The notes under the pieces: generated by a model | The model's input: the letters and a program-made list of their open reading frames with translations, nothing else | Told to the model about the DNA's origin: nothing | The model's database searches: none | Made by a program: the position numbers and the translations under genes | From: Nephrocerus scutellatus | Lineage: Eukaryota; Arthropoda; Insecta; Diptera; Pipunculidae | DNA length: 64,000 nt | NCBI GenBank assembly: GCA_947095585.1 | Contig: OX352765.1 | Span: 60,443,623-60,507,622, forward strand | Reading direction: 5' to 3' | Shown here: in pieces, positions 4,836 through 62,105 of the stretch | How positions within the stretch are numbered: the stretch's first letter is position 1 | Layout of the letters: the number at the start of each line of letters is the position of its first letter

Positions 4836-5400
4836 GTGACAAAATTTCCCATTCCAAAAACTACAAAACAAATTAAACAATTCCTAGGACTAACTGGTTA
4901 CTATAGGAAATTTATTAAAGACTATTCATTGATAGCGAAACCAATGACATTATTTCTAAAAAAGGATGCAAAAATAAACATTTCAGACATAAGATACCAA
5001 GAAAGCTTCAATACACTTAAAAAACTGTTAACACATGATCCAATATTAGTATATCCTGACTTTACGAAGAAATTTACACTTACAACAGATGCTAGTAATT
5101 ATGCGTTAGGCGCAGTACTTTCGCAAGATAATCATCCAATTTGTTATGCTAACAGCACAATAGAAAAAGAATTATTAGCAATAATCTGGTCAACCAAATA
5201 TTTCAGACCATATCTTTTCGGACGAAAATTCTTGATCGAAACCGATCATAAGCCATTAACTTGGCTTTTCTCAATTAAAGAACCTAATTCAAAACTTGTA
5301 AGATGGAGATTAAAATTATCAGAATTTGACTACGAAATTAAATATAAAAAAGGAACATTAAATAAAAACGCAGACGCTCTTTCAAGAATAGAAATAAATC
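4836..5400 (+). pseudogene. pol: errantivirus B RNase H domain
   Basis: Continues pol after the frameshift. FLGLTGYYRKFI is the RT connection motif. RNase H follows with TDAS (near 5085), EKELLAI, TDHKPLTW and NADALSRIE. About 12 residues that normally sit between the ILYASR-type strand and the YSTIEKE helix are missing (CYANSTIEKE), an in-frame deletion that should damage the fold. It degrades RNA in RNA-DNA hybrids in functional relatives. Confidence 0.88.
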
Positions 5401-6706
5401 TCAATGAAGAGAATAGAGAAATCGAAGACATTAATCCATTTCCAATCACCAAATCTCCTCTAAACATCTTTAAAAGACAAATAGCAATTCTTAAAACAAA
5501 TTCTGGTTCTTTACGAATAAAACAAATAAGAATTTTCAACAAACACAGAAAAGTAATATATCTTAAATCCTTAGATGCAGAAACTGCATTAACACTTTTG
5601 AAATCACATTTCAACCCAAAATCTCTGAATTGCATCTACATAGAAAACACTAGAAAATGTTTATAAAACGCATTTTGAAGCACAAAATCAATTAAAAATA
5701 GTCAGAACTGAAATAATGCTAAAAGACATAATAAATGAAGAAGAATTAGCAGAACTTATTAAAGAAGAACATCTTAGAAACAACCATAGAGGAATTATAG
5801 AGGTTTACAAAGAATTACATTTAAAATATTATAATCCAAAACTCAATATCAGAGTCACTCAATTCATTAATAACTGCGAAATATGCTTAAGTTCGCCAAT
5901 CAAGCATAAATATCAATTAACAGAAACACCCTCAGGTCCTAATGAAATTATTCACGCTGATGTATTCTATACACTTGAAAAACAAATTTTCGTTACATTC
6001 ATCGACAAATTTAGCAAATTCGCACAAGCTATTAAAATTACAGCAAGAACTTGGACCGAATTCAAAAGAACCATTCTTGTTCTACTTTCTACAATAGGAT
6101 CAATAAATAAAATTACAGTCGACAACGAACTAGGATTCAAAGCTCTTCCACTAAGAGAATTTTTACAAAATGAACATATAGAAATCCATTTACTTCTAAT
6201 AACAATCACACATCTAAATTAGATGTAGAACGCCTACACAACACAATTAATGAACATATAAGATTATTAAAACATGATCCCAACAAAGACAATGATACAG
6301 TCGAAGAAAAAATCTTAAAAATAATACGTTTCTATAATAACACTATCCATTCTACTACAGATAAGAAGCTAATAGATTTTAAAAATGGAACTATAAAAAA
6401 TGATGAATATAATTTAATTAAAGAAAAAATTCTAAAGAAAAAGCAAATTACTATCGATAAATTAAATGCAGGAAGGGAAGAAGTAGAAATACAACCTGGA
6501 ACAAATTTTATTAAAGAAACACGTGGTGGAAAAAATCATACAAAGTTTAGGAAACTCGATACAGAGAAAATCGATGAAAATCATATAATTAATAAAGAAT
6601 CTGGCTTAAAATATTACAAATCACACATAAAGCGTAAAAAGAAATTTCAAACAATTGACTCTCCTTCAATTCAAGCGAAAAACAAAATCATTAAAAGGAA
6701 ACCTTA
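5401..6706 (+). pseudogene. pol: errantivirus B integrase
   Basis: DDE integrase. A HHCC zinc-binding N-terminus is seen (EEHLRNNH, then CEICL), followed by IHADVF with the first Asp and TVDNELGF with the second. A frameshift near 6195 precedes the Glu-bearing DVERLHNT segment, which lies in another frame. A basic C-terminal tail ends at a TAA near 6706. A stop near 5665 also separates the spacer from the zinc domain. Family role: insertion of element DNA into the nuclear genome. Confidence 0.86.
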
Positions 6707-6721
6707 ACATATTCCTATCTT

Positions 6722-7965
6722 TTGCAGATGAATTCCCAGATCATAATTTTATTATTCTCAGCAATACTATCCTTAACACACGGACAATCACTAGAGATAC
6801 ATGACTTAAATAACAACCATGGATATATGACAATTAAGAAAGACGATATTAATATTATTGAAAAATTCAACAAAATCCTTCATATTATAAATGTTACAGA
6901 AATAGAAAATACAATGCATCACATAAACGAAAATATAAACTTAATAAAAATAAAAATCGGTACAACTAACCCAATGTTCAACACATTAGTACATAACTAT
7001 AAACACTTAGAACAAAAAATATACAATCTCAGACCACATTCTAAAAATAAACGAGCACTCATGAATATATTAGGCACAGGACTAAAATACCTAGCAGGAA
7101 CAATGGACTCACAAGATGAGATCGAAATAAAAACACAATTAGAAGCCCTTACTACAAATAATAAAGAATTAATATCAGAAAGTAATAAACAAATCTCCTT
7201 TAATTCCAAAATCTCTCAACAAATAAAAGACATAACAGACCACATTCAAAAGCAACAATTAAACACAGTTTTTAAATAACATTAACATATTAAATAAAAA
7301 CAATTTCAATAAATTACAAGACCAAATAGACTACGTTCAAAATATTTATCAAATCAATTACGATATAAATCTTTTTCGACACCATATAGACGACATAGAA
7401 CAAATCATTTTAACAAGCAAACTAGGCATACTAACTAGAAACATCTTGACAAAAGAAGAACTAAGACTAACAGAAGGTATACAAGGTTTTAAAGACACTA
7501 AAATAGCCGTAATTTTCGAAAACATACTTATCATAATAGTCCTATTAATACCACAATATTCTAACACTTCCTATTCCACTGTTATTATCGAACCGATGCC
7601 AAATAAATATAATAAAGCTATATTGCTTGATGAAAGTATTTTTATTATAGATGAGAATAATAAAGTATATAACAGAAAGGTTAAAGATAAATTAAAGAAA
7701 ACCCTACACGAAATAAATGATAACTGTACTTCAAACATTATTAAATTTAAAGAAGCATATTGTCCAATGAAAAACTTTACGGGAAATAAAATAAAAGAAA
7801 TAATACCCGGAATTATTTTGACAAAAAATATTACAAATATAAATATTGAACATAATTGTAACAAATTGAAATTAAACATATCGGGAAGCAAATTAATTAA
7901 ATTTGAAAATTGTAATGTAATCATAAGAAATAATACATTTATTAATACATACTTTAAAATAAAAG
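6722..7965 (+). pseudogene. env: errantivirus B envelope gene, truncated
   Basis: Envelope glycoprotein related to baculovirus F proteins. The N-terminus has a signal-peptide-like stretch (IIILLFSAILSLTHG). A furin-type site, SKNKR, is followed by a small-residue hydrophobic segment resembling a fusion peptide. A frameshift near 7275 splits the protein, and the remainder resumes in another frame (clear from 7446). Several N-x-S/T sites and paired Cys remain. The frame runs into the 3' LTR without a clear transmembrane anchor, so the C-terminus and probably the polypurine tract have been lost. It cannot make a functional envelope. Confidence 0.8.
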
Positions 7966-8562
7966 ATATATTCAATCATAATATAACTCATAATACACAT
8001 TCATAATATTACTCATACGCGCAGTCCTAATGGAAAATTCCATTCCTTATCTCTAATTCAGATCTAAGAGATCAACATGTTTACATCTTCTAAATTCAAG
8101 GACAACCAGATGTCCAATTGCGCACACACATTCATATCTTGTTTACCATTTTGATACATTCTTATCTTGTTTACCATTTACACATCCTTATCTTGTTTAC
8201 CAAATTCAAAGACATGTTCTAACATGAATAATTATTATCACATTTTGCGATCTAAGAGATCAACATGTTTACTCCGTAAATCCAAGGACAAGATCAAAGT
8301 CCAACAGTATTTAAGCTGCATGCAAATACACAAGCAGTTCAGTTCAGTTCAGTTCAGCAGTTCAATACAGTTCCGTACAGTACAGTTTTCGTTGCTCAGT
8401 TCTTCGTTGTGAATTATTAATAAGTGAATATTATAAAGAAACAAGTTGTGTTAAATAAGGTGTTATAAATCTATCGATCTTGTAAATACTTTTGTAAAAG
8501 AACGTTTTCTGAATATATATTTTATTTGTTAAAAATATATTCTTTTGAATCGAAAAAAAAAT
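7966..8562 (+). repeat. 3' LTR of errantivirus B
   Basis: About 597 bp, nearly identical to 1156-1767. It lacks a 10-bp block and one CAGTT unit found in the 5' copy. The right edge is set by the end of alignment (AAAT) before element A sequence resumes. Confidence 0.88.
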
Positions 8563-37892: not shown

Positions 37893-39430
37893 TCACACGA
37901 ATCTTAAAATATGATGGTTGTTGACGTGGTGTCGGTTGAGGATTTGTTGCGATGTTGTGTGTCGGTTTTGGTTGACAGTACTTGCTGAAACTTCCAAGTA
38001 ATGAGCAGGATAATGACTACCGTGATTAGCGTGAGTGCAAGGTAGCTGACCACATGATGATGAGTGTTTGATGACTGATGTCATTCTGGTAGATTGTCCA
38101 AATCTTTGTGCAACAACTTTGACTGGAGATTGGTGAGTTGTTCCCAGTTAGTGTCAAAGTGCTCGAAGTTAAATTTCAAAAGAGGATTTAGTGCACTTGG
38201 TGAACTAATAGATGATATGTTTCCAAATCCAGTATACGATGTATATACACGACTGGAAATCTCCATGTTCCCTTGGATGTTAATGGCATCATTCTTCAAA
38301 ACGCAGTACTGACCAATTGTAAGAAATCCTGAACCCATCAATGTTAATTGAACAGTATCGTTCACGCACACTGCAATCATTTCGGTGGCAAGAGTCGTGG
38401 CGAAAATCCACTGGTTGGGACGAAACGTTGGTGTGAATGATATCTTCTCTCCCATAGTCCTGAATTTGCAGCTCTGAGAGGTTTTGTTGTTTAGTAATTG
38501 AATCTCACAGGCGAATTTGCCAGACTTTCTTGCAAATTTCAATTGTTTTCTGTCAATCAAGTAGGTATCTTCAATTGTGGTAGCTGTTGTAAGTTCGCTC
38601 CGACTTAAGGCAACGAATTGGTCCCGATGCCCGCTGATTCCGAGTATTTCGGTGTTTGGTGTGATAACCACAAGAGTGTCATTGAGTTGTGTTGGGATAG
38701 GTTCAATCGCAAACAAATCGAGAACTTGATGATCTATTAACGGCAATTTTAATTCAAACATCACACGGTCCTTTGTGACAGTAATCCTGACGTCTAATAT
38801 ATGATAAAATCCTAATAGGTTCGCCTCGGTTATTGGTAGAGCTCGTGTGGGTGATAAATGCCCTTTTATAAGAATAACCTCCTTTTCGAGTTGTTGTGGC
38901 GTGAGAATTTTCGGGCTTATTTTTCCGTGACTGGTATGTGTCTGAATGTTTATTAATTCTGATTGGATGTGTTGTAAGTCTGTGACTATCGCTGATAGTT
39001 GAACGATTAGGACAGTAAAACGTTGTAATCGTCGAAATTGAGTAACTGAGTTGTTAATGCTTTTCAAATATTCGATGATCATATGTTGGACTTCAGCTAG
39101 GCGTACGGATGCATCTTTCTCATCCTGTTTTATAATGTTGATTGCGAGCGTTTTCAAAGTATTCGATGAGTGAGTGGCATTAAATGTCTGATGTTGGATG
39201 TAGGCACAATTTTTTCAAAGCTTGGATTCCATCTGATAGTACATGAACTTGATGATGAAATGGCGCCAGATCGTAGTACACAATGATTTTCCAAACACCA
39301 CTTGAAAGCCGTGCAGTACCTATTCCTTCGAAGTAAATCCCGGGGTTTGCCTCAAAGTTGGATGTTTGAATTTGAGATGCCAATGCCAATGGTAGAAAGA
39401 GTAGTGTAATTAGCATTATAGTGAGTGATG
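37893..39430 (-). pseudogene. env: element E envelope-like domain
   Basis: The envelope part begins inside the frame ending at 39180 with a hydrophobic segment (LTIMLITLLFLPLALAS) acting as a signal or anchor. Next to it, 39157-38081 is open for 358 codons. The join between them lacks about 200 bp that F keeps, including the basic cleavage site and fusion-peptide-like segment. The 358-codon frame stops with LPE-TGA. In the same frame just after that stop lies a strong transmembrane segment (YLALTLITVVIILLITW) and a short tail. Relation: F-type envelope of roo-like BEL elements. Not functional as written. Confidence 0.78.
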
Positions 39431-40956
39431 GACCGCTGGTCACTGATCTCCTTTTCTTGACTCCCTCATCTTGGACTGAAGAGGGACGTTTTGGATTCGG
39501 TTTCTCCCTTGCTGATGGCCGTAGATTTGCTGTGTCTTCTTCGCTGAATAAGGGAGCTAATCTATGTATTGGTCGCTTGAGTATACCCGACTTTGTTTTA
39601 ACATCAACCACTCGAACAATTTCATCATTTCCTTTGTAAATTCTAGTGATTCGTCCAAGAGGCCATTGTAAAACGGGTACGTTGTCTTCCTTCAAAATTA
39701 CCAACATACCTTCCTTCACATTCATTGCTGAGTTCTTCCATTTAGACCTTGAGTGAAGTTCGTGTAGATATTCTTCATGCCATCTCTTCCAGAATGTGTG
39801 TTTCAATTCTGACACAAGTTTCCATCTAGTGTTCAATGATGTTTTGTTCGCTGAAGATCTTGAGTCGACTGGCGTCGTTAAAGGCTCACCGATAATAAAA
39901 TGACCTAATGTCAGAGCGTCTTTTTTGGTTTGATGACAATGGTGTGAGTTGTCGAGAATTCAAAATTGCCTCTATTTCTATTACCACCGTTTCCAATTCT
40001 TCATATGTCAATGATGAAGTTGACACATTTCGAATCAGATGATACTTAGAGGATTTAACGGCTGCTTCCCATAGTCCACCAAAATGTGGGGCTCTGGGAG
40101 GAATGAATTTGAATTAAATTCATTTATCACTGCATGATTTGATGATCCTGTCTTTGGAGTTGTTCGAAAAAATAGCTTCTTGCAGCTCAACTAATTGATT
40201 TTTTGCACCAACAAAGTTCGTTGCATTGTCGGAGTATAACGTTTTGCACCTTCCTCTACGACTAATGAATCTTTTCAGTGCTCCGATGAAGGCCTCTGTA
40301 GTTAAATCTGATACGATTTCCATATGAACGGCCTTTGTGGCAAAACAGCAAAAGACTGAAATGTAGGCCTTATGTGGTCTTTTTCCTCGGATTTTATGAT
40401 GTACCCAAATGGGACCACAATAATCTACGCTTGATATCAAAAATGGACGTGATACTGTCACTCTATCAGCTGGTAGATTACCCTTGATTTGAGTAAATAA
40501 CTTCGGTTTTGCCTTTGTACAGCGTACACAGTTTTGCACAATGTTGCGTGCTACTGTTTTTCCTCTTAAAATCCAAAATTGTTGCCGAGAAGTGGCCAAT
40601 AAAGCTTTCGGGCCGCAGTGTTGGTTTTCTTCGTGAATCATTTTTAAAATGATTTTGGTCAACGGGTCATTGTATGGTAAAATCATTGGATGCTTGGCAT
40701 CGAACGACAATGTTGAAGCTTCCAGTCGCCCTCCCACACGAAGTATTTCCTGATCGTCTAGCAGAGGGCAGAGACTTGCAAGTTGGTTTGATTTACTCAC
40801 TTGCTTATATCGTTGCAGTTCCTTGATTTCATCCTTGAAATCAGAGATTTGAATAGTCTTGATTATGGCCCGTAATGATTTCTTCATTTCTTGCGCGCCT
40901 AAAGATTTGTGACTTGGCCCTTTCGCCTTTGAGATTTGCAATGAAGCGAAACACAT
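39431..40956 (-). pseudogene. pol: element E integrase
   Basis: Zinc N-terminus MIHEENQHCG with VRCTKAKP; catalytic Asp in SSVDYCGPIWV and in LYSDNATNFVGA; the frame ends by TAA at 40120 before the Glu-containing PHFGG-WEAAV part. About 70 codons around 39850-40100 are broken. The C-terminal DUF5641-type domain is in frame at 39836-39430: ELKHTFWKRWHEEYL, MLVILKEDNVPVLQWPLGRI, IRVVDVKT-like and PIHRLAPL. This frame continues straight into the envelope part, so pol and env form one reading frame. Confidence 0.85.
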
Positions 40957-41761
40957 ATCCGACTGTACGTTGTAGAAATCGAAACGAGTTTCTGTGGTTT
41001 ATTCCATATATTAATGCTTCACATGATGCTGAATCTAGTATTGCTGCTGCCACAGTTGATTGCCTTTTTCTTTCAATGTCATTTGGTATGTCAAACGTCT
41101 TTATTTCTTGATTTAGCCAAAATTCATTGGTTCCAGGTAAAAAGAGTGGTCCAAAAACCATATGGAGCATGAACTGAATTTTTCAGGATTAATACCACGG
41201 GAGATTATGTCAGCAGGATTCATTTTGGATGAAACATGGTGCCATTGAACAGCGTGTGAAAGCTCTTGAATTCTGCTTACCCGATTTGCTACGATGGTGT
41301 GTAGTGATGACGGTGATGACTTTATTCAGGATAAACCAATTTCAGAGTCAGACCAAAAAAATGTGAGCATGCCTTGGTATTTAAGTTCCTGCTTTACTCT
41401 TTCTGTTAGTTCGGCTCCCAAAAGGGCTGCGCATAATTCTAATCGAGGCAGTGTTTGTTTCTTCAAAGATGCTATTCTGGATTTTGCGCAGAGCAATCTT
41501 GATGTTATAGTTGGTCTTTATAACATGCTCGCACATAAACAGCTGCTCCATATGCCTTTTCCGAAGCATCAGAAAATGTGTGTAGTTGAACAGAAACTGG
41601 TACCTTTGCGTTGAAGACGTGTCTTTGAACCTTAAAAGTTATTAGTGCTAATATACATTTCATAAAGCGCGTCCATTCTTGTTGCTCCTGACGTGGCAAT
41701 TCTTCATCCCACGTATATTTTTGCTGCCATAGGTACTGCATAAATATCTTTGCTGATACTG
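40957..41761 (-). pseudogene. pol: element E RNase H and connection
   Basis: VSAKIFMQYLWQQKYTWDEE, then QLHTFSDASEKAYGAAVYVR with the catalytic Asp of a BEL-type RNase H, then LPRLELCAALL-like decayed text, and the Leu-rich connection before integrase (NEFWLNQEI and AKSQIFRRA). Several frameshifts. On its upstream side (41761/41762) it meets protease sequence directly, with no RT between. Confidence 0.8.
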
Positions 41762-42545
41762 TTACGGGGCCAAAAAATTATTTTCACACCACTTTTCTGA
41801 TGGAGTCATGGCTTTTGTTTTCTCGCTTAAATCGTCCAGTCTCCAGAATTTTGTAGCGGTTTTTGTTTTGCCAATGACGATCCATCCAAGAACTGTATTT
41901 TGTAGTACTGGTAAGTGTTTTCCTAATTTCAGCTGTTCTGGGCGGAGTAAGGTATGGTAGAATTCTGCTCCGATTAAGAGATCAATCCTTCCAGATTTGA
42001 AGAATTCGGGATCGGCCAGTGTTATGTTGTTTGGCGTTTCCCAATCAGTGACATCTGGCATCCAAGTAGCGGTTTTTGTTTTGCCAATGACGATCCATCT
42101 AAGAACTGTATTTTGTAGTACTGGTAAGTGTTTTCCTAATTTCAGCTGTTCTGGGCGGAGTAAGGTATGGTAAAATTCTGCTCCGATTAAGAGATAAATC
42201 CTTCCAGATTTGAAGAATTCGGGATCGGCCAGTGTTATGTTGTTTGGCGTTTCCCAATCAGTGACATCTAAATCTCTAGATGGTTGCGCTGAGATTATTT
42301 GCGGCAGAACGAAAGCTTCGATTCTTGTTGAGAAACTTCCTACGGATGACTTCAGGTTAAGGTTAACTCGGGATTTCTAATTTCCAGTACGTAGCCCGAT
42401 TCCTTCAATTGATAAGTGGGATCTTGTTGTGGCCAATGATTATTTGTTAATTAATCTCTCCGTCATTAAATTAACTTGTGAGCCAGAGTCGAGTACCGCA
42501 CGTGCTTCGCAGGTCCTCCCATTATTTGCCACTATTGTTACCTTA
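41762..42545 (-). pseudogene. pol: element E protease with internal duplication
   Basis: DUF1758-type aspartic protease. ARAVLDSGSQVNLMTERL carries the DSG triplet (near 42480). The C-terminal half, DLLIGAEFYHTLL, is present twice because 41853-42056 and 42066-42269 are near-identical tandem copies with a 9-bp filler. A stop near 42440 also breaks the frame. After CENNFL the sequence jumps to VTVSAKIF, showing that the whole RT was deleted. Confidence 0.82.
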
Positions 42546-43888
42546 GCGGTTGCTAAAAGAACGTATTTATGACTTCCCTTTGCATGGTTTATTGTTGCTA
42601 CAGTTGCAGGTGAATCTTCCCTTTTTTCTGTACTTGATGATATTTCATTCCTTTGATGCTCCAAATGAAGTAACGAGTTATTTTTTTTAGTGCACTTGGT
42701 GCAATGTCTCCAAGCACATTGAGTAGCCATGTGTCCCGGCTTCAGACAATTCATGCAAAGTTTGGGCTTCTGGATGAACTTTATGCGGTCATTCACTTTT
42801 AGTTTAAGAAACTGGTCCCATGAGAATAACGGGTGAACCTTTCTTCCGCATGACAGACAGAGGTTCTTTGCTTCATGGGTTGATGCTGCCGAGGTGCATA
42901 TCTTTGTTGATGACTGAGGAAGAGTTGCCCTTTTTCGGTGTCCAATTGTTTCCATTGTTTGGCTCTGCAATTCCAAAAACGATAAAAATTCTTTAACTGT
43001 CGGTAGCTCCTCCGGTTTGGATAGTGACTGCTCATAAAGGATATAGGTAGGTCGATCCATTTTTTTTATCAGCAAGTGAATCAGCAGCGGATCCCATGAA
43101 CTCGTTTCAATGCTTAAATTATTTAATGCAAGTAAGCTCTCTTTTGTAGTATCATGCAGATGTTTGACCGCTGCTGCAGATGATGTTCCTGCTGGCTGAT
43201 CCACAATTTTTTTGATTAGTGTTGATGCCAGTATTCTTTTGTTACTATAGCGCTCCTCAAATAGTTTCCAGGCTGCTACATAATTTTCATCTGTGTTTGA
43301 AAGATGATTGACGAGACTTGCTGCTTCGCGAACCAGTTGCGTCTTGACATACCACATTTTATCTACATTTGAGATTGGCTGTTTGTGAATCAATATTGTC
43401 GTAATATTGTCCGGATTGTTTCGCCAAGAGCAAGATGTTTGAAAGTCTGGCATCTAGTATTGCCATTTTCGATGTGCCCTTCTAATTAAGCCATCGATTT
43501 TTGAAATGCACGCTTCTTCAGTTTGCTTGGCTTTATTTGTGAAAAAGCCTTCTTCGACGCTGTCATCGACGCTGCTTGCTTCCAACGTTTGGATTTCTTG
43601 TTAAAAACGTTTTATATATGAATTGCACAACGTTGTCGTTTGGACATAGTAGTCCTCCATAAAGTACTCGTGTTGACGGTCGTCCTCCAACTTACGGAGC
43701 TCTGTATCGTTTGCCACGAACTTGGCAATGATTGTTTGTAGCTGACTGAGTCGCAGCTTGTAATATTTTAAGTTTTTCCGCTCTTCGGAATCTTTCTTAA
43801 AATTTCGAGTTGTTCTTTCGATCTCGTCCCCAAGTTGAGACTGCTGTGAGAATAAGTCGTCCATGATGTGGTGTAAGATTGTGTCCAA
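42546..43888 (-). pseudogene. gag: element E gag
   Basis: First piece 43888-43601 has a Lys/Glu-rich coiled-coil-like start. The second piece from 43453 is DUF1759 (VDKMWYVKTQLVREAASLVN, YSNKRILASTLIKKIVDQPA, LPTVKEFLSFLE) followed by zinc fingers CLSCG and CMNCLKPGHMATQC-x-HCTKC. The frame changes between 43600 and 43454. This Gag is the best preserved part of E and lines up with both halves of F gag. Confidence 0.85.
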
Positions 43889-45670: not shown

Positions 45671-46560
45671 AGAGACATGGTTATAAATAGATTTTTGTCA
45701 ATGGAAAAACGCTTGCAAAGGGACACAACTTTACGTTCAGAGTATATCAAATTCATGGACGAATATGAAGTTTTGGGACACATGGAAAGGTTACGTCCAG
45801 CAGATGTTCCGGATGCCAATTATTTCATTCCTCATCATTGTGTTGTGAAGCCCTACAGTAGTACTACCAAACTAAGAGTGGTATTTGACGCATTGGCCAA
45901 AACATCAAATGAATTGGCTTTGAACAACATTTTGCATAAGGGCCCAACAGCAATCGGCAAATTCGCATACGCGAAGAAGACACTGCTCAACAACTGATTG
46001 TGTGGCGGAAGGATCCAACCAAATTTATACAGTTTTATCGTCTTCTATTGTCACTTATCGAACAAAGTCAGCTCCATATCTTGCAACTAAATGACTCCAG
46101 CATCTGGCAAAAGAAAACATGCATAAGTACCCGCAAGCTGCATCATCATTACACGACGATTTTTATGTAGACGAGTGCTTAAGTGGTGACAACGACATCA
46201 ACACGGCGCTTTACACCCAAAACCAACTCACAACTATTCTTCATGAAGCTGGATTCAAGCTCAGTAAATGGTGCGCTAGTCATCCAAAGCTACTGGCAGA
46301 CATACCATTAAAGGATCAAGAAATAAATTTAGATTTAGATGGTTCATCAAACAAGGCAACAAAAACATTAGGAATCATTTGGCTACCAAAAACTGATGAA
46401 CTGTGCGGACGAGCGCAAGTGTCATCCGGAAAATCTATCACCAAGCGAGTAGTATCATCAGAATTGGCTCGAATTTTCTATCCTTTGGGAATTTTTGACC
46501 CCGTAACAGTATCAGCAAAGATATTTATGCAGGACCTATGGCAGCAAAAATACACGTGGG
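45600..46560 (+). pseudogene. pol: element F reverse transcriptase, core deleted
   Basis: BEL-type RT. The N-terminal part 45677-45997 has YFIPHHCVVKP and TTKLRVVFDALAKTSNELAL. Then about 100 residues of palm are lost. The next frame (46119-46886) starts near the catalytic motif, which reads FYVDECLSG instead of YVDDCL, so a catalytic Asp is changed to Glu. GFKLSKWCASHP and LGIIWLPKTDEL follow. Inactive. Confidence 0.85.
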
Positions 46561-47121
46561 ATGAAGTATTGCCCCTTCAGGAGCAACAAGAACGGATGCT
46601 GAAAGTTCAAAGACACGTCTTCAACGCAAAGGTACCAGTTTCTATTCAACTACATACATTTTCAGATGCTTCGGAAAAGGTATATGGGGCAGTTGTTTAT
46701 GTGCGAGCAAGTTATAAAGACAAAACTATAACATCAAGATTGCTCTGCGCAAAATCCAGAATAGCACCTTTGAAGAAACAAACACTGCCTCGAATAGAAT
46801 TATGCTCCTCTTTTGGGAGACGAACTAACAGAAAGAGTGAAGCAGGAACTCAAATACCAAGACATGCTCACATTTTTTTGGTCTGACTCTGAATTTCTTT
46901 TATCCTGGATCAAGTCATCAGCTTCATCACTACACACATTTGTAGCAAATCGGGTAAGCAGAATTCAAGAGCTTTCACGCGCTGTTCAATGGCATCATGT
47001 TTCATCCAAAATGAATCCTGCTGACATAATCTCCCGTGGTTATAATCATGAAGAATTCAGTTCATGCTACATATGGTTTTTGGATCACTGTTTTTACATG
47101 GAACCAATGAATTTTAGCTAA
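46561..47121 (+). pseudogene. pol: element F RNase H
   Basis: QLHTFSDASEKVYGAVVYVR with catalytic Asp, LPRIELC, then a shift near 46815 to FFWSDSEFLLSWIKSSASSL, FVANRVSRIQEL and WHHVSSKMNPADIISRG, which is the RNase H C-terminal part. Two frames, small deletions. Confidence 0.85.
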
Positions 47122-48600
47122 ATCAAGAAAAAAAAAAGACGTTTAACATACCAAATGACATTGAAAGAAAAAGGCATTAAACTGTGGCAGCAGCATTACC
47201 AGCTTTAGCACCATGTGAAGCATTAATATATGGAATAAATCACAGAAACTAGTTTCGATTTCTACAACGTACGGTCGGATATGTGTTTCGCTTCATTGCA
47301 AATCTCAAAGGGGGAAAGGCGAAAGGGCCAAGTCACAAATCTTTATGCGCGCAGGAAATGGAGTAATCATTGAGAGTCATAATTAAGACTATCCAAATCT
47401 CTGATTTCAAGTATGAAAGGAAAGGAACTGCAACGATATAAGCAAGTGAGTAAATCAAACCAACTTGCAAGTCTCTGCCCTTTGCTAGACGATCAGCAAA
47501 TACTTCGTGTGGGAGGGCTACTGGAAGCTTCAACTTTGTCGTTCGATGCCAAGCATCCAATGATTTTAGTATATAATGACCCGTTGATCAAACTCATTTT
47601 AAAAATGATTCATGAAGAAAACCAACACTGCGGCCCGAAGTCTTTATTGGCCACCTCTCGACAACAATTTTGGATATTAAGAAGAAAAACAGTAGCACGC
47701 AACATTATGCAAAACTGTGTACGCTGTACAAAGGTAAAACCGAAGTTATTTCCTCAAATCATCTACCAGCTGATCGAGTGACAGAATCACGCCCATTTTT
47801 GATATCAGGCGTAGATTGTTGTGGTCCCATTTGGGTATATCATAAAATCCGAGGAAAAAGACCACATAAGGCCTACATTGCAGTCTTTTGCTGTTTTGCC
47901 ACAAATGCCGTTCACATGGAAATAGTATCAGACCCAACTACAGAAGCCTTCATCGGAGCACTGAAAAGATTCATTAGTCGTAAAGGAAGGTGCAAAACGT
48001 TGTACTCCGACAATGCAACGAACTTTGTTGGTGCACAAAATCAATTATTTGAGCTGCAAAAAGCTATTTTTTCGAACAACTCCAAAGAAAGGATCATCAA
48101 ATCATGCAATGATAAAGGAATTGAATTCAAATTCATTCCATCCAGAGCCCCACATTTTGGTGGACTATGAGAAGCAGCTGTTAATTCCGCTAAGTATCAT
48201 CTACTTCGAAATGTGTCAACTTCATCATTGACATATGAAGAATTTGAAACGGTGTTAAAAGAAATAGAGGCAATCTTGAATTCTCGACTACTCACACTAC
48301 TGTCATCAAACCCAAACGACTTAGGAGCTCTTACACCAGGTCATTTCATTATCGATGAGCCTTTAACGACGCCAGTGGACTAAAGATCTTCAGCGAATAA
48401 AACATCATTCAACACTAGATGGAAACTTGTGTCAGAATTGAAACACACATTCTGGAAAGGATGGCATGAAGAATATCTACAAGAACTTCAATCCGAAACG
48501 GCACTCTTAAGTCCAAGATGAGGGAGTCAATAAGAGGAGATCAGTGACCAGCAGCCCATCACTCACTACAATGCTGATTACACTACTCTTTCTACCATTG
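47122..48600 (+). pseudogene. pol: element F integrase
   Basis: LQRYKQVSKSNQLASLCPLL, then zinc N-terminus MIHEENQHCG with CVRCTKVKP, a frameshift near 47760, catalytic Asp in SGVDCCGPIWV and LYSDNATNFVGA, and PHFGGL followed by TGA in place of Trp before EAAV. The C-terminal domain (NTRWKLVSELKHTFWKGWHE) is partly deleted after 48500. Close match to E. Confidence 0.85.
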
Positions 48601-52669: not shown

Positions 52670-53633
52670 ATATTGTGAGGGGAAATTCTGCGCAGGAGGA
52701 AGAATTTCCCTACACAGTATGCATTATATATGCCACCTCCTCATCACTTCACCATCATCATATTTTCTTTCATAATTTATTTTTATATTCCTTAAACTTT
52801 GTTCTACATGCACTAATGAATTAATAAAGCAACCAAATGTATACAAATGGTGTTCTCACTGAGTAAAAAGGGAAAAATCACTCAATATAAAAGAAGAGTG
52901 AAAATATGGTTGTCAGTAAACACCTAACACAACACAGAAAAAAAAGAAACTCAATTCTCGTTTTCTCCTAAAAGCAGGCAAGCGCTCAAAAGACAACCAA
53001 CCACAGGCGGTTAATCTAACCACCACCGAGTCGAGCGAAACAGCAGTGACCAATCCGACGCAACTGATCTAGCATGAGTCATAGGCGAACAGAAAATTCC
53101 AAAAGAGAAAGTAATATTAAGCACAAAAACGAGAACAGCAGCGAATTCGCCCAAAAATACGGCTGTCCCACTCACACCCAGGCGGCAGTGGACTCTTACG
53201 CACCGATCGGAACCCAATGCACACTAACTTCAGACAAACGGCTGATGGGGTCGATGACCGAAACTTTTCAAAACACAAACCGTTTTCAAAACCAAATGTG
53301 TAAATGACGTAAGCAGAGATCAAACAAACACACTACATACATGCATATGGTAGAGAATGCGTATAGAGCATGCGTATAATAGAGTCAAAACGTGTATATA
53401 TCATGTTATTGCAATACAACAAAACATGTATATTGCATGTATATTGAAATACGACAAAACATGTATATTAGAATAAATTTGAAACATGTATGCAAAACAC
53501 GTCGATCATATATATTGCCAACAATATATGGCAATATGCATCGGACTATAGAGGGAAAACCGAAGAAAACAACAACAAAACACAAGAAAGATGACAAACA
53601 AACGAAAAACCACCTTGTATGACAACAGAAAAA

Positions 53634-53669
53634 TATAAAAGGAGCACGCAGCTCGACAGAAGGGCAGTC
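53634..53669 (+). promoter_or_regulatory. LTR core promoter of element G (also 61314-61349)
   Basis: TATAAAAGGAGC followed about 30 bp later by GGCAGTCTT, an initiator-like sequence. Identical in the 3' LTR. Start site is inferred from spacing only. Confidence 0.6.
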
Positions 53670-53692
53670 TTCCTGAGTTCTTTTTGGAATCG

Positions 53693-53984
53693 ACATTAGT
53701 GGCTTAAGAGTACTTACCTTGCCATTACCGCTGAAGCTAAACGCTGCAACGCTGACTGAATCCTCACATTAGTGCCTTAAGAGTACTTACCTTGCCATTA
53801 CCGCTGAAGCTTAACGCTGCAACGTGGACTGAATCCTCACATTAGTGGCTTAAGAGTACTTACCTTGCCATTACCGCTGAAGCTAAACGCTGCAACGCTG
53901 ACTGAATCCTCACATTAGTGGCTTAAGAGTACTTACCTTGCCATAACCGCTGAGGCTACACGCTGTGAACTCATCCGCCATCAA
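53693..53984 (+). repeat. 73-bp tandem repeat in 5' LTR of G, four copies
   Basis: Units start ACATTAGTG at 53693, 53766, 53839 and 53912. Each has AAGAGTACTTACCTTGCCAT, whose complement is a consensus splice donor, AAG|GTAAGTACT. The last unit is diverged at its end. Confidence 0.92.
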
Positions 53985-54338
53985 AGCATTATATCAAACT
54001 TTATATAAAATAAACAACTAACTTCCTAACCTCTTTTTCACAGGAGAATTATCAAACTTTATATAAAATAAACACTAATTTCCTAATATCTTCTCACAGG
54101 AAAATTATCAAACTTTATATAAAATAACTATTAATTTTATAAAAAGAAAAATTATCACAACATGCCTCAAGGGGCCACAAATATCCTTTGTATAAATTAA
54201 TATTGAATATACTTGAACTAAATGAAGATAAAATTCCAAAAACCCTAAACAAAAAAATCTTATCATTGTAACGACCAAATTTAAAATAGAACCCTGGTCA
54301 CACTGATTTCTACCCCGGCTGGGAAACTCCGTTACAAT

Positions 54339-54356
54339 TGGCGCCCGAGCAGGGAC
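54339..54356 (+). promoter_or_regulatory. primer-binding site, tRNA-Lys type
   Basis: TGGCGCCCGAGCAGGGAC begins two bases after the LTR. It is complementary to the 3' end of a tRNA-Lys (GGGCGCCA acceptor) and differs by one base from the tRNA-Lys3 site used by lentiviruses. Confidence 0.82.
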
Positions 54357-54418: not shown

Positions 54419-55482
54419 ATGGTCAGAATGAGCTGGGTGTATAACCTATCGAAAGATGAACTAAAAAATTATATGAACGAATTCAGACTGGATACCAACG
54501 GTTCGGTAGAAGAACTGAGAAAACGTTTTTCCAACTATATTACAGGGCGAGACGTCACGTCAGAGGACGAAACTCGCCTCATCGAGTTGGAAAAGAAGCA
54601 TACCCGCGGCATGCTGCCTCAAATATCCCTAAACCCTACGGATTCACAGGATTACAAGGAACCAAAGGCGGTCGTAAGCAGGACGACGTTCCCCAGTGCC
54701 AAGGGAAACAATTGCCATACGAAACCCAACAGAGGCACCAGGGGCATCGTACCCAATGGTTATCGACGCGTAAATGGTCAGTGCGGTACGACGGTGGCAA
54801 AGAGCCTCTTCTGTTTATCGAGAGATTGGAAGAGCTCGCGGATGCATACTCGTTGAGTAGAAATCTGCTTCACCGGACTATGCCGGAGTTGCTTCGCGAC
54901 CGAGCCTTGCTGTGGTTCCGTAGCAACAACCAGAGGTGGCAGGACTGGAGCAACTTCAAGACGGACTTTTTGCAATTCCTGCCCACCAGATACTGGGAAC
55001 GTCTGGACGATGAAATCCGCCAAAGACGCCAGAAGCCACAGGAACAGTTCAAAGACTACGTAATTACGATGCAGAACCTGATGAGGCATGCGAATTATAC
55101 AGAAGAAGAGCAGCTAGAAAGAATCTTCCGGAACTGCCGTCAGGAATACCAATATTATATCCGACGGAAGGATTTCGGTAACCTCCGTGAACTCATCGGA
55201 CTCGCGGAAGATTTCGAGGGCATAGCAGACGCCGCGGACCCAATCAGCCATGTGTCACGGCCTAGACCGAAGGAAAGAAATTGCATGGTCGCATCAGACT
55301 CCGACGAACGAATAGACGTCAGAACCGCATGCATGCGATGCGGTCAACACGGCCAAGTTAGGCGGGACTGCCGCAACCCGCAAGTACTCTTTTGCTGTGA
55401 CTGTGGAAAGCGGCAGATACGAACGATGGAGTGCTGCCGCAAACGAAATAACCGAGCGGGTCACGAACAGGGGAACCGGTAG
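54419..55482 (+). pseudogene. gag: element G gag with SAP-like N-terminus
   Basis: From ATG 54419. Residues about 5-45 (LSKDELKNYMNEFRLDTNGS, VEELRKRFSNYI) resemble a SAP DNA-binding motif. A frameshift near 54715-54770 moves to the second frame, which holds the capsid region (LLFIERLEELADAYSLSRNL, ALLWFRSNNQRWQDWSNFKT) and two zinc knuckles (CMRCGQHGQVRRDC and CCDCGKRQIRTMEC). The frame ends at TAG 55480. Apart from the shift, the protein looks whole. Confidence 0.85.
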
Positions 55483-55526: not shown

Positions 55527-55930
55527 GTGAATTTTCTAACTTCTGATTCCAGCCGCATTCTAGCTACCATCACCATAGGAGAAGATCTTGTTAACGCCAC
55601 CATCGATACGGGAGCTACCAGGAGTTTCATAAGTGAACGAGCCGCTACAAACAAGAGAAGTAAAACCAACAGCGTAGCCGTCAACATGACAGTCCGGATG
55701 GCCGAAGGGACTCCTAAGCTCATGCAAGAGGCATTACGATTGGACATTCGGATTGGGAACAGACACACAGAGTTCTTGTTCCTGGTCCTTCCAGAGGCCA
55801 TGGACCACGTCATACTGGGGCTGGATTTCCTATTACGAGTCGGCGCACGGTTAACTTGCGGCGGCCAGACAGTGAGACTCGAAGAACGGATAGGAGCAGC
55901 AGACAGTGTTCTACAAAGCACCACAACTAC
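55527..55930 (+). pseudogene. pol: element G retropepsin
   Basis: ILATITIGEDLVNATIDTGA with the DTG triplet near 55600, TRSFISERAA, and HVILGLDFLLRVGA as the C-terminal ILG-D motif. In frame with RT. No stops within. Processes Gag-Pol in relatives. Confidence 0.88.
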
Positions 55931-56657
55931 AACTACACCACGAACGGATAAAGAAAAACTTTCGGCTTTCCTCCAGCAGGAGTTCGAAAAATTTGACAAG
56001 CTACCTGCTGTATCTAATATAGCAGAACACAAGATCGTCATGCGCGACGATAGACCAATAAAGCAGCGGTACTACCCTCAGAATCCAGTAATGCAAGAAG
56101 TCATCAACACAGAGATAGACGAACTGCTGACCAAGGGGTGCATAGAGCCCTCTCATAGTCCACACAGCGCACCGATAGTCCTGGTTCGGAAAAAGACCGG
56201 CAAATGGAGACTATGCATCGATTACCGGGAACTCAACGCACGATCAATACCGGACGCCTACCCTCTTCCCAGAATTCAACACATCCTAGAAAGACTCCGA
56301 GGCGCAAAATTCATCAGCAGTCTGGACTTGCGGAACGGGTATTGGCAGATACCAATGGAAAATGAGAGCAGACAATACACTGCCTTTACGGTGCCTGGCC
56401 GCGGCCTATTCCAGTGGCGGGTGATGCCATTCGGTTTACACTCTGCACCAGCCACCTTCCAGAGGGCACTTGACAGAGTCATCGGGCCGGAAATGGAACC
56501 CCACGCGTTCGCGTATCTTGATGATATAATTGTCACTGGAAGGAAGTTCGACGAACACCTAGAAAACCTACGCACAGTATTCAGAAGGCTCCAAGAAGCC
56601 CACCTAAAAATAAATCCGGAAAATGTGATTTCTGCAAAACAGAGATCAGATATCTAG
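55931..56657 (+). pseudogene. pol: element G reverse transcriptase
   Basis: IKQRYYPQNPVMQEVINTEI, SHSPHSAPIVLVRKKTGKWR, LCIDYRELNARS, FISSLDLRNGYWQIPM, WRVMPFGLHSAPATFQRALD and AYLDDIIVTG (near 56510). All polymerase motifs are present. The frame is lost near 56630 in KINPEK-C, and the thumb (YLGHVVSRQGI) continues in another frame. Confidence 0.92.
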
Positions 56658-57310
56658 GCCATGTGGTGAGTAGACAGGGTATACACACTGATCCCGACAA
56701 GGTAGCCGTAATTAAGGAGCTGAAACCACCGCGAAACTTCCGTGAAGTGCGACGTTACCTGGGTATTGCCTCCTGGTATCGACGATTCGTGCCCGATTTT
56801 TCAAAAACAGTGCAACCCTTGACTGCACTGTTAAAAAATGGTAAACACTGGAAATGGGGAGAAGAGCAGCAAACGGCTTTCGAACAACTGAAGCAAAACT
56901 TAACGGAAGCACCGATTCTTGCATGTCCGGATTTCACGCAGAAGTTCTCACTCCAGACCGATGCAAGTGACTACGGCTTAGGGGCAGTCCTCACACAGGA
57001 ACTCGATGGCAGTGAACGGGTCATCGCCTACGCCAGCCGACATCTTAACCCGGCGAAAAGTAACTACTCCCCAACCGAGAAGGAGTGCCTGGCGATCGTC
57101 TGGGGAATTAGGAAGATGCGGCAGTACATCGAGGGATACCAGTTCACCGTCATAACGGACCACCTCTCTCTGAAGTGGTTGAATTCCATCACCAGCCCAT
57201 CCGGACGAATCGCCCGATGGGCCCTCGAACTTCAACAGTTCTCGTTCGACATTAAATACAGGCGGGGTAAGTTGAACGTTGTCGCGGACGCACTGTCACG
57301 ACAACCTTAC
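56658..57310 (+). pseudogene. pol: element G RNase H
   Basis: YLGIASWYRRFVPDF connection, then SLQTDASDYGLGAVLTQ, YSPTEKECLAIVWGIRKMRQ, FTVITDHLSLKWL and VVADALSRQ: all four acidic catalytic positions are kept. Open frame, in phase with integrase up to the TAA at about 57525. Confidence 0.92.
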
Positions 57311-58683
57311 GAGACGCTTATGATAACTGAAGACGAACCGGCCGCAAAGTCACGATGCCACTGGCTAGAGAAACTTATTACACAGGTGAAGGAGTATCCC
57401 GCAAAGTTTCCAGACTACGTCATGGAAGGCGACCAATTATACCGACATATAGAACAGCGTACCGGGGACGAGGATGCGGCTCCGTGGAAACTCTGTGTTC
57501 CCAAAATGCTTAGAGGACAGGTTTAACAGGAAAATCATGACGATGTTGCAGCAGGACACATGGGCATTCGCAAGACCACGGCGCGCATATGCGGACACTA
57601 CTACTGGCCAGGTATGTTTCGAGACATCCGAAACTATGTGAAAAGTTGTGAAAGCTGCCAAAAATACAAGCCAAACCAGCAACAAGCAGCCGGGAAGATG
57701 TTAACCCAGATCGCAGAAGAACCGTGGGCCACGCTATGCGCCGATTTCGTGGGACCTTTGCCAATATCGAAACATGGGAATACTATACTCCTGGTCTTCT
57801 TCGACCGATTTTCGAAATGGGTCGAATTGATCCCGATGCGGCGCGCAACAACTGATGGAGTAAGAAAAGCGTTTCGAGAACGCATCCTTGCACATTACGG
57901 TGTACCGAAGGTGTTGATCACGGACAACGGCGCCCAATTCACCAGCAAGGTATTTTGCCGATTCCTGCCATGGCCATGGGCACTCGGCACCAATTCACTG
58001 CCACATATATGCCACAGGAAAATCCAACCGAGAGAGCGAATCGCACCATTAAAACCATCATCGCCCAGCTTTCTGGAACACAACAGCGTACTTGGGATGA
58101 AAAACTACCAGAGGTCATGCTTGCGATAAACTCCAGCCTACAAGATTCCACAGGATACAGCCCCGCTTTTCTCACGCAGTGCATAGAGCCACGCCTTCCA
58201 AACGCGTTGTACGACCAGGTCACCCCAGGAACAGGTACGGTATCCAAGACACCCAACGAACGCGCAAATCAGATGACCGAGGTCTTTGAAATCGTCCGAC
58301 GAAACCTGGAACGTGCGGCAGGAGACCAAGCCCGCCATTATAACGTAAGACGTCGCACATAGAAGCCCGAAGTAGGACAATTAGTACTCATCAAGCAACA
58401 ATAACTGTCAAACACCCTGGAAGGATTCGCCAGCAAATTAGCACCAAGGTACGACGGGCCATACAGAGTAACGGACTTCATCTCACCAGTAATCGTCAAG
58501 CTACAAAGAAAGGGACAAGGTAAGGAACGCACCGCGCACATTAGTGAACTCAAAAACTTCCACGAGGATTCCACAGTCGAGCACTCAGGAACGCAAGAGA
58601 AAATTACACATCACAAGAATCACACGAACCAACAACAAATACAAACTACCACGGCCAGTGAATCACAAAACAAACAACTATAA
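57311..58683 (+). pseudogene. pol: element G integrase
   Basis: A TAA near 57524 lies just before the zinc N-terminus (AAGHMGIRKTTARI; CESCQKYKPNQQQ). Core: CADFVGPLP (first Asp), VLITDNGAQFTSKVF (second Asp), then a shift near 57955 to the frame with PTERANRTIKTII (Glu). A TAG near 58361 breaks RRT-KPEVGQLVLI. The C-terminal module (APRYDGPYRVTDF, TAHISELKNFH) ends at TAA 58681. Confidence 0.9.
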
Positions 58684-59003: not shown

Positions 59004-59729
59004 ATGGCAAACAACGAAACTCTACAACGCATCACCCTTAAACGGACAGCCGGCTCCTGGAACGCAGTGCCAAAATTTAGTGACGCCGACTTATAGAAAT
59101 TGGTTTGCAAATACCCGCCCGGAACAGGGGGCATCGACGTCCGTATGTCGGATTACTATCGCCTCAGGTATGGCTCATTTCTGAACGATACGCTTATCGA
59201 AGTTGGACTTAGGTGGTCGATAAGACGAATCGCCGAAGAACAACGGGCCCGCACCAAGGTGTGCACCTCCTTCCTAGTAGACCGCATGAGGAGCTATCAA
59301 CCTGCCCCACAAGAGGACGAAGAGGCTGTCACCGGAAAACGTCACACGCTAGTCCGACGATGGAACAAGGATGTTGAAATCCTCAGCAAGGAGCTCATAA
59401 TAATCCCAGTGTGCGAGAACAAGCACTGGTACCTCACCGCAGTGGCGCACCCTGGAACGCCCGAAAAGGCTAGGATCTACGTATATGACTCTTTGGCTAC
59501 AACAGAACGCAAAGAGACCACACGGCTGATAAGGGGTTTCTTCATCCAGGAACACCGGGTCAGAGGCCGTCAGGGATCGTGGCAGGACTATGACGGTTCG
59601 TACCCGAGTCACTCCATAAACATTCCACAACAGACCAACCGGATAGACTGCGGGTTGTACTTATTGGAGGCAGCCGAAGGAGTGTTAACAATGGGTCTCC
59701 CAGGCCTTGAGACAGTAGGAGAGAGGTGA
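59004..59729 (+). pseudogene. Ulp1-type (C48) SUMO-protease-like gene of element G
   Basis: From ATG 59004 the frame encodes a cysteine protease of the Ulp1/SENP fold. Seen in order: SDYYRLRYGSFLNDTLIEVG (substrate groove, LND-LI), ELIIIPVCENKHWYLTAVAH with catalytic His141, IYVYDSLATT with Asp162, and NIPQQTNRIDCGLYLLEAAE with Gln210 and Cys216. The P-Q-Q-x-N-x-x-D-C-G signature and the six-residue Gln-Cys spacing match the family. One TAG at codon 31 (59094) is the only break in the domain. Known family role: cleaves SUMO or similar tags from proteins. Lying between integrase and the 3' LTR, it is an extra gene of the retrotransposon. Without the stop it continues by a small shift into the Ser-rich tail. 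Confidence 0.88.
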
Positions 59730-60391
59730 CAGTCGCCAGAATCGCTGAAAAACGTAAAATCTTGGCCGCAGTAATCAGGACCAACGCAGAGGCAACAATA
59801 GAATTCCCTGAAATAGACTTCCACAAAGCAAGAGATGAGGAGCCCAGGAGCCGCCGGCATAATGGCAGACGGAGCGGCCGAGGAAGCCGCAGCAGCAGTA
59901 GCAGTAGCAGTAGTAGCAGCAGCAGTAGCAGTAGTAGTAGTGGCAGTAGTAGCAGCAGCAGCAGCAGCAGCAGTAGCAGTAGTAGTGCCAGCAACGACAG
60001 TCACAGTTCCGACAAACGAAAAGACGACCACACTGATCACCAAAGTCACCAGAAGGAGGAAGTGACAATTAACAATGACCACCCCAACCAAGTGGTCACG
60101 CACCACAGACCGCTGGAAGGACGCACGGGCTGCAACGACAACACAGCCGAACCTGAAACAAAAAGGCAACGACCTGGCAGTGGTCGACCTGACACCTCAA
60201 AACCCAAAAAAACTACCCCGCCGGCATGGCCCCAAGGGCTCCAGGAGAAGATCGATAGGGCCAAGGCCGAAGTGTTACGACAAGGACAACGACGCCACCA
60301 TTTTCACCACACTGAGCGAAATATACATTTTGAAGTCCTCGTCACAAAAAGGGGAATCATCAGTGTTCGCCAAAGCAGCGGGGAGATGTGA
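59726..60391 (+). pseudogene. Ser-rich C-terminal tail of the Ulp1 protein
   Basis: Open for 221 codons, one shift after the protease frame. VARIAEKRKILAAVIRTNAE is helical and likely completes the Ulp1 domain. An Arg-rich RRHNGRRSGRGSR is followed by a long Ser run, then charged His/Asp/Lys-rich sequence and a C-terminal PPAWPQGLQEKIDRAKAEVL segment. The stop (TGA 60389) lies in the first bases of the 3' LTR. The basic part could be a nuclear signal (inference). Confidence 0.7.
59880..59996 (+). repeat. AGC/AGT triplet repeat encoding polyserine
   Basis: An almost pure run of AGC and AGT codons, with single Gly and Ala codons near the end. The opposite strand gives Leu and Ala runs in long spurious frames. 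Mixed synonymous codons suggest age or selection for Ser. Confidence 0.9.
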
Positions 60392-62101
60392 AGGGAAATT
60401 CTGCGCAGGAGGAAGAATTTCCCTACACAGTATGCATTATATATGCCACCTCCTCATCACTTCACCATCATTTTATTTTCTTTCATAATTTATTTTTATA
60501 TTCCTTAAACTTTGTTCTAAATGCACTAATGTGTTCTCACTGAGTAAGAAGGGAAAAATCACTCAATATAAAAGAAGAGTGAAAATATGGTAGTCAGTAA
60601 ACACCTAACACAACACAGAAAAAAAAGAAACTCAATTCTCGTTTTCTCCTAAAAGCAGGCAAGCGCTCAAAAGACAACCAACCACAGGCGGTTAATCTAA
60701 CCACCACCGAGTCGAGCGAAACAGCAGTGACCAATCCGACGCAACTGATCTAGCATGAGTCATAGGCGAACAGAAAATTCCAAAAGAGAAATAAATATTA
60801 AGCACAAAAACGAGAACAGCAGCGAATTCGCCCAAATATACGGCTGTCCCACACACACCCAGGCGGCAGTGGACTCTTACGCACCGATCGAAACCCAATG
60901 CACACTAACTTCAGACAAACGGCTGATGGGGTCGATGACCGAAACTTTTCAAAACACAAACCGTTTTCAAAACCAAATGTGTAAATGACGTAAGCAGAGA
61001 TCAAACAAACACACTACATACATGCATTAGTAGAGAATGCGTATAGAGCATGCGTATAATAAAGTCAAAACGTGTATATTTCATGTTATTGCAATACAAC
61101 AAAACATGTATATTGCATGTATATTGAAATACGGCAAAACATGTATATTAGAATAAATTTGAAACATGTATGCAAAACACGTCGATCATGTATATTGCCA
61201 ACAATATATGGCAATATGCATCGGACTATAGAGGGAAAACCGAAGAAAACAACAACAAAACACAAGGAAGACTACAAACAAACGAAAAACTACCCTGTAT
61301 GACAACGGAAAAGTATAAAAGGAGCACGCAGCTCGACAGAAGGGCAGTCTTCCTGAGTTCCTTTTGGAATCGACATTAGTGGCTTAAGAGTACTTACCTT
61401 GCCATTACCGCTGAAGCTAAACGCTGCAACGCTGACTGAATCCTCACATTAGTGGCTTAAGAGTACTTACCTTGCCATTACCGCTGAAGCTAAACGCTGC
61501 AACGCTGACTGAATCCTCACATTAGTGGCTTAAGAGTACTTACCTTGCCATTACTGCTGAAGCTAAACGCTGCAACGCTAACTGAATCCTCACATTAGTG
61601 GCTTAAGAGTACTTACCTTGCCATTACCGCTGAAGCTAAACGCTGCAACGCTGACTGAATACTCACATTAGTGTCTTAAGAGTACTTACCTTGCCATAAC
61701 CGCTGAGGCTACACGCTGTGAACTCATCCGCCATCAAAGCATTATATCAAAGTTTATATAAAATAAACAACTAACTTCCGAACCTCTTTTTCACAGGAGA
61801 ATTATCAAACTTTATATAAAACAAACACTAATTTCCTAATATCTTCTCACAGGAAAATAATCAAACTTTATATAAAATAATTATTAATGTCATAAAATCT
61901 TTGTCACAGGAAAAATTATCACTACATGCCTCAAGGGGCCACAAATATCCTTTGTATAAATTAATATTGAATATACTTGAACTAAATAAAGATAAAATTC
62001 CAAAAACCCCTTACCAAAAAAATCTTATCATTGTAACGACCAAATTTAAAATAGAACCCTGGTCACACTGAGTTCTACCCCGGCTGGGAAACTCCGTTAC
62101 A
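60387..62101 (+). repeat. 3' LTR of element G
   Basis: 1715 bp; same as the 5' LTR apart from scattered substitutions, the missing 33 bp near 60530, and a fifth 73-bp unit. Units start at 61373, 61446, 61519, 61592 and 61665. Confidence 0.93.
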
Positions 62102-62105
62102 ATAT

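Follow-up and report, generated by a model that had tools for sequence, protein, structure and literature searches.

A stretch of 64,000 nucleotides from the pipunculid fly Nephrocerus scutellatus (assembly GCA_947095585.1, contig OX352765.1, forward-strand positions 60,443,623 to 60,507,622; hereafter the window) contains a Ty3/gypsy retrotransposon, referred to here as element G, whose third open reading frame (ORF3) encodes a cysteine protease of the C48 type and a Ser-rich tail. The analysis establishes the place of this gene in the element, its conservation, its catalytic residues, its predicted fold, the purifying selection on it and its old origin on the SENP6/7 side. Our tentative reading is that ORF3 is a captured SUMO protease of the host SENP6/7 (Velo) type, which has become a regular third gene of the element and may weaken SUMO-dependent silencing.

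Identity and class of the ORF3 protease

A preliminary description of this DNA had placed a protease gene between the integrase and the 3' long terminal repeat (LTR) of element G, and both the domain matches and the LTR coordinates bear this position out. The four catalytic positions of the Ulp1 type that it named (H141, D162, Q210 and C216) are likewise correct when numbered from the ATG at 59004, the corresponding codons lying at 59424-59426 (His), 59487-59489 (Asp), 59631-59633 (Gln) and 59649-59651 (Cys). The Pfam profile PF02902 (C48) matches 59100-59729 with an expect value (E) of 1.9e-18 and 67.5 bits (cut-off 20.7), and it rises above the cut-off in the window ORF and in all nine of the other ORFs tested, one of which belongs to a tandem array described below; NCBIfam returned no match for the window protease ORF. 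Within the window the Ulp protein gave one match, and the H..D..PQQ..DCG motif occurs a single time in the six frames. ORF length is weak evidence, since dinucleotide shuffling of the region gave an open run of at least 209 codons twice in 500 trials; it is homology, not length, that carries the case for a protease gene. The catalytic His, Asp, Gln and Cys are invariant in all 19 aligned domains (17 from elements, one from the array and one from a host Ulp1), an alignment outside which stand the two open G copies with Tyr in place of the Cys that are described below.

The best match among solved structures is human SENP7 (E 1.2e-18), SENP1 being far weaker (1.3e-8). The N-terminal half of the protease scores 58.6 bits against SENP7, 27.9 against SENP2 and about 19 against SENP1, while the C-terminal half alone is uninformative for the SENP type. 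Sequence and model both put SENP7 nearest, with Ulp2 next by model, and a domain tree unites host Ulp1 with SENP2 (100/100), apart from the element domains. The earlier label 'Ulp1/SENP-type' is right as to the protease and can be sharpened, as the enzyme is predicted to belong nearer to SENP6/7 (Velo, Ulp2-like) than to SENP1/2/Ulp1. The insertion that splits the SENP7 domain has no counterpart in ORF3 for about 60 residues (SENP7 chain 148-207). The domain of the window copy is 30% identical to the host velo domain, for which the figure in another element family is 44%, and tree support is low where F38 and the motif-bearing families meet velo, which bears on the number of captures.

The protease is very likely to be enzymatically active, and SUMO is its likely substrate. 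A protease acting on a NEDD8 or ubiquitin tag instead of SUMO is improbable, given that SENP7 is nearest by sequence and model and Ulp2 next by model. A maturation protease that cuts the Gag-Pol of the element, as adenain-like proteases do in some viruses, would suit the position of the gene, and an adenain model in the viral library was matched, only at E 0.36; such a role is nevertheless very improbable, since pol already contains an aspartic protease and the best matches are SUMO proteases.

Other searches were less informative. Structure prediction from the single sequence reached a predicted local distance difference test (pLDDT) score of 28.7, and for the ORF3 tail by itself no solved structure was significantly similar (best E 0.016, over low-complexity sequence). 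A protein database queried with the Ulp ORF yielded 91 and 888 candidates, none of them significant, which is not evidence of absence, the search seeing only proteins that share several exact words within a length range. The same database contains relatives of the reverse transcriptase (RT) at 76%, and none of the best 120 of 2629 matches carries PF02902. Scans of viral and GTDB contigs for the protease gave no match. A second SENP6/7-like host locus (L044, G000:C2:15774447) shows a stop and frame breaks when read without introns.

Occurrence, integrity and selection of ORF3

A search of the genome (613 Mb, 9 contigs) with the protease ORF gave 729 candidates, of which the best 150, the window copy included, were considered. 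One tandem array holds 18 of these matches. Among the 132 listed elsewhere, 103 are stop-free in the match and 70 of the 103 also lie in an open frame of at least 440 amino acids (aa), both tallies resting on a hand-transcribed match table. Detailed reading of 20 of the closest copies answers a check proposed in the preliminary description, in that the gene is regular in other copies and in the same place: RT, RNase H or integrase lies upstream in all 20 (an integrase match in 18), and an LTR match lies downstream in all 20, starting at its first base in 19. In 12 of the 20 a single open frame of 452-507 aa includes the homologous ATG and extends through the tail to the LTR, and nine of these 12 retain all four catalytic residues; in L023 the open frame continues beyond the LTR start.

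More distant relatives carry the gene as well. Of 14 representatives picked from the match lists and fetched (8 + 6), 13 have pol directly upstream of the protease, and ORF3 of the element families compared shares 38-44% with ORF3 of L016. Among the best 150 of 8086 candidate integrase matches, at least 92 are followed on the same strand, 0.5-3.5 kb downstream, by a listed C48 match (median distance 1744 bp; coordinates hand-transcribed), as are at least 21 of the 24 best. The gene can be regarded, in the terms of the preliminary description, as a standard part of the element, that is, a regular third gene in G and its relatives and not a one-off host exon. A recent capture of a host exon into the window copy only is ruled out by the genome-wide element copies and families.

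The fourteenth representative, L034, is the tandem array (G000:C2:56.345-56.469 Mb), with units of about 1563 bp that contain the C48 domain. Pol is absent from the 6.8 kb read, a 1482-aa open frame covers three domain matches, and the array domain lies near the G clade in the tree; the array is possibly a captured or domesticated ORF3. A single pol-protease frame was seen in L030 and at G000:C6:16507217, an arrangement that resembles the integrase-Ulp1 fusions of Ginger1.

In the window copy, ORF3 carries an in-frame TAG at 59094-59096 and a frameshift near 59700-59730. The single gene with a Ser-rich tail that had been described first is correct as to the tail and not as to the frame, 59726-60391 being in another frame here. 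This split is a lesion of the window copy, because 12 of the 20 close copies encode protease and tail in a single open frame. The LTR divergence predicts 0.73 stops and 1.41 frameshifts for an ORF3 that was undamaged when inserted, and one of each was observed (own reading); for gag-pol the prediction is 2.5 stops and 4.2 frameshifts, against a reading of 3 stops and 3 or 4 frameshifts, one of which may be the natural gag-pol shift. The observed ORF3 lesions match the expectation, and the gene therefore looks intact at the time when the window copy inserted. Signs of a retrocopy flanking the gene were not found, the longest shared word being 10 bases and chance-like.

Among the 12 open copies, the ratio of nonsynonymous to synonymous substitution rates (dN/dS) has a pairwise median of 0.22 for the protease part, over the 58 of 66 pairs with dS above 0.02, and of 0.36 for the tail (62 of 66 pairs), values that are favoured downwards by the use of uninterrupted frames only. 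Within families, dN/dS is 0.09-0.49 for the protease in six of seven pairs and 0.07-0.39 for RNase H in five of six, the sixth being without synonymous change. Between two families that are 61% identical, the protease gives 0.17 at a dS of 1.66, and the remaining between-family pairs are saturated. A dN/dS below 1, named beforehand as a check, is what these values show, and the ORF3 protease is under purifying selection. That the gene is a passenger, a host exon carried without use, would agree with its being missing or broken in some copies and broken in the window copy, yet this explanation is hardly credible in view of the low dN/dS, the invariance of the catalytic residues in the chosen domains of families sharing 38-44% of ORF3, and the agreement of the window-copy lesions with an intact insertion.

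Beyond the protease, a C-terminal module closes ORF3 in G, L029/L030, L031/L036, L032/L033, L046 and its kin, L047/L048, L050 and L051, the survey covering families whose ORF3 end was read and the immediate LTR being checked in G copies only. A module profile built from nine sequences of the N. scutellatus genome was compared with eight tail-bearing proteins preselected for similarity to the tail of P0013, a Drosophila subpalustris protein: seven, from elements of D. palustris and D. subpalustris, outrank all 2400 shuffles, and the eighth, from D. rhopaloa, falls outside the 16 shown in the ranking. Among 120 real proteins the best E is 0.0002 (hhalign P 3.4e-7); an earlier test of the module was weak, 3 of 2000 shuffles being equally good. 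No C48 domain was found in these Drosophila gene models, which may skip exons. P0013 itself has an ORF3 end with EEEIIVISDEE and the C-terminal module, without the protease. As the module is common to N. scutellatus and Drosophila elements, ORF3 seems older than the split of the elements of these hosts; parts of the clade may have acquired the protease or, alternatively, have lost it. An acidic SUMO-interacting-like motif, sought with what we take to be the consensus pattern, is present in P0013, L047, L048, L049 and L051; in L049 (reverse strand) it occurs twice, in an ORF3 with two protease domains.

Possible function of the protease

In flies, SUMO is required for transposon silencing guided by PIWI-interacting RNAs (piRNAs). 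In the mechanism that we propose, a SENP6/7-type host protease would have been captured and become a regular third gene in a large Ty3/gypsy clade. The ORF3 protein, made from the element and with a fold like that of SENP7, would cut SUMO, probably in chains, off nuclear proteins, and its removal from Panoramix or other factors of piRNA-guided silencing would weaken silencing of the element. Host silencing is put forward as a possible target of the protease, at somewhat less than even confidence. A wider proposal is more doubtful, namely that a whole clade of gypsy elements in insects maintains a dedicated deSUMOylase of the SENP6/7 type as a suppressor of the piRNA pathway, one that disables transcriptional silencing dependent on SUMO and guided by piRNAs; host SUMO and element protease would be in an arms race, in which some ORF3 add a SUMO-binding motif and others lose the enzyme.

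Alternatively, the protease may act on products of the element itself, stripping SUMO from integrase, Gag or the pre-integration complex and thereby protecting them or aiding nuclear steps. Such a role would be in keeping with L030, whose RT, integrase and protease share a single open frame, with two loci at which integrase and protease matches share an open frame (1743 aa and 1774 aa), and with the Ginger1 transposases, whose gypsy-type integrase ends in a Ulp1 domain (PMC2836005; publications are cited here and below for the excerpts available). In the other sampled families, on the other hand, ORF3 is a separate frame after pol. Action on the element's own products is a weaker, though real, possibility, and host silencing is slightly preferred as the target.

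Several observations weigh against an enzyme maintained to counter silencing. Among the 12 open copies, Tyr replaces the catalytic Cys in the near-identical neighbours L009 and L010, and the stretch with His and Asp is missing from L026. The seventh within-family protease pair has a dN/dS of 1.17, resting on five changes, and the pattern used for the SUMO-interacting-like motif has no match in G or in six other families, each represented by one copy. Furthermore, a deSUMOylase need not oppose silencing, because SENP7 helps to hold HP1 at heterochromatin in mammals, to judge by the titles of work cited in PMC8324896. Finally, some elements are without the gene. Five of the 58 integrase matches that have no C48 match listed downstream were examined: L052 and L054, of a related subfamily, lack an ORF3 protease, and in L055, a near copy (C3:92672144), the LTR begins at the place expected for ORF3. 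Copies lacking the gene, which the preliminary description had regarded as fatal to its proposal, were thus met only in this minority, and the gene is common, yet not indispensable for every member.

As for the same five loci, L052 and L054 have an open pol stretch and integrase matches near 85% identity, and pol of L054 continues into a short end with a likeness, by eye, to the ORF3 end that the module profile does not bear out (4.4 bits, E 0.2). L053 has the C48 gene with an internal deletion, and the 1 kb inspected at L056 matched neither of two element copies.

Element G and its relation to known systems

Element G has the LTRs, the target-site duplication (TSD), the gag gene and the order protease, RT, RNase H and integrase of Ty3/gypsy elements (Table 1). 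The joined flanks of its empty site give an uninterrupted reading through an ORF like that of a long interspersed nuclear element (LINE), within which element G sits inserted. Its LTRs differ by a Kimura two-parameter distance of 0.027 (1630 aligned bases), which at the fly rate that we assume would place the insertion about 1.2 million years ago. The primer binding site presumably fits tRNA-Lys; no tRNA gene was found within the 64-kb window. From its position, the purine-rich stretch ahead of the 3' LTR is probably the polypurine tract. The splice donor AGGTRAGT is absent from element G up to the ORF3 end. In a tree of 117 RT sequences, the RT of element G falls, with a local support of 0.87, among proteins from Rhagoletis, Bactrocera and Eurosta; the first two genera are tephritids, and a taxonomy look-up assigns Eurosta to the Tephritidae as well.

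Table 1. Coordinates of element G and its parts in the window
Feature	Position	Strand	Basis or remark
TSD ATAT	left 52670..52673, right 62102-62105	.	flanks TG...CA LTRs
5' LTR, 1663 bp, tandem repeats of ~73 bp	52674..54336	+	
Primer binding site, presumed tRNA-Lys type	54339..54356	+	sequence
gag, frame broken	54419..55482	+	Retrotrans_gag by Pfam; zinc-knuckle Cys by eye
pol: aspartic protease and RT	55527..56657	+	domain match
pol: RNase H	56663..57526	+	domain match
pol: integrase, frame broken, C-terminus at 58683	57560..58683	+	domain match
ORF3: protease gene and Ser-rich tail; stop codon overlaps LTR start	59004..60391	+	
SENP6/7-type C48 protease (predicted), open stretch	59100..59729	+	Pfam, structure and sequence comparison
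ORF3 tail: protease domain end, Ser-rich low-complexity stretch, C-terminal module	59726..60391	+	
Conserved C-terminal module of ORF3	60224..60388	+	related to ORF3 end in Drosophila elements
Purine-rich stretch ahead of 3' LTR, encodes ORF3 end	60372..60386	+	sequence
3' LTR, 1715 bp	60387..62101	+	

The tandem repeats of 73 bp, at 53620-54065 and 61300-61818, differ in copy number between the two LTRs. Elsewhere in the window, a further gypsy element, whose downstream ORF is env-like by eye, occupies 2642-8006, BEL/Pao-like pieces were recognized by eye at 38081-43453 (-) and 46119-48170 (+), and a short ORF at 678-1196 has a RING-like Cys/His motif, also by eye.

To our knowledge, transposon counter-measures against nuclear piRNA silencing have rarely been shown in animals, and the protease clade offers a direct, testable candidate for one. 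Its closest counterparts are SENP6/SENP7 and Velo, which share with ORF3 the catalytic residues His, Asp, Gln and Cys, the HWYL surroundings and an N-terminal YPP..GG motif; unlike them, ORF3 sits in a retrotransposon and has a Ser-rich tail and a C-terminal module. Among LTR elements, Osvaldo, Ulysses and Isis resemble G in having LTRs of about 1-2 kb and a 4-bp TSD, and presumably also in their primer site of tRNA-Lys type (PMC3286476, PMC3630058). The LTRs of G, at 1663 and 1715 bp, are within the length described for the Osvaldo/Ulysses lineage (PMC3286476), and LTR length and primer site, the latter taken as tRNA-Lys, fit the Osvaldo lineage as published. The third gene of those elements differs from that of G, being termed env (Isis) or absent (Isis-like of Calliphora) in the excerpts available (PMC3286476, PMC3630058). 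In the lineages studied in PMC12992720, as far as the excerpt extends, every third ORF is the env of the gypsy/gypsy clade, and G differs from the env-bearing Errantivirus in that its third ORF encodes a C48 protease. Excerpts on Osvaldo, Ulysses and accessory genes describe no such protease (PMC5408442, PMC12910113, PMC3098803, PMC2774666, PMC13269885), and titles and abstract openings, with subscription papers and Repbase outside their scope, revealed no SUMO protease in an insect LTR element.

Captured enzymes are known as ORF3 of bdelloid LTR retrotransposons, as in G, although these are a GDSL esterase or a DEDDy exonuclease and, in the excerpt available, no SUMO protease (PMC5408684), while the giant planarian Burro elements have SUMO-like and ubiquitination-related domains (PMC6431247). 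Ulp1 domains have been reported from Ginger1 and Mutator and, among retroelements, from NeSL and Utopia (PMC2836005, PMC4640811). The Ulp1-like protease of NeSL and Utopia (PMC4640811) differs from that of G in belonging to non-LTR retrotransposons of nematodes and in standing at the protein N-terminus. The element clade studied here would have kept a SUMO-removing enzyme though its families drifted to about 30-50% domain identity. Ginger1 elements, which are not known to carry a reverse transcriptase, are DNA transposons with terminal inverted repeats, unlike element G with its LTRs, gag, RT and RNase H. Like the elements studied here, they bring together an integrase of the gypsy type and a Ulp1 domain, which in Ginger1 is C-terminal (PMC2836005); in one of the present families, pol and protease share a frame. 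A combination known from Ginger1 is now placed in a lineage of LTR elements.
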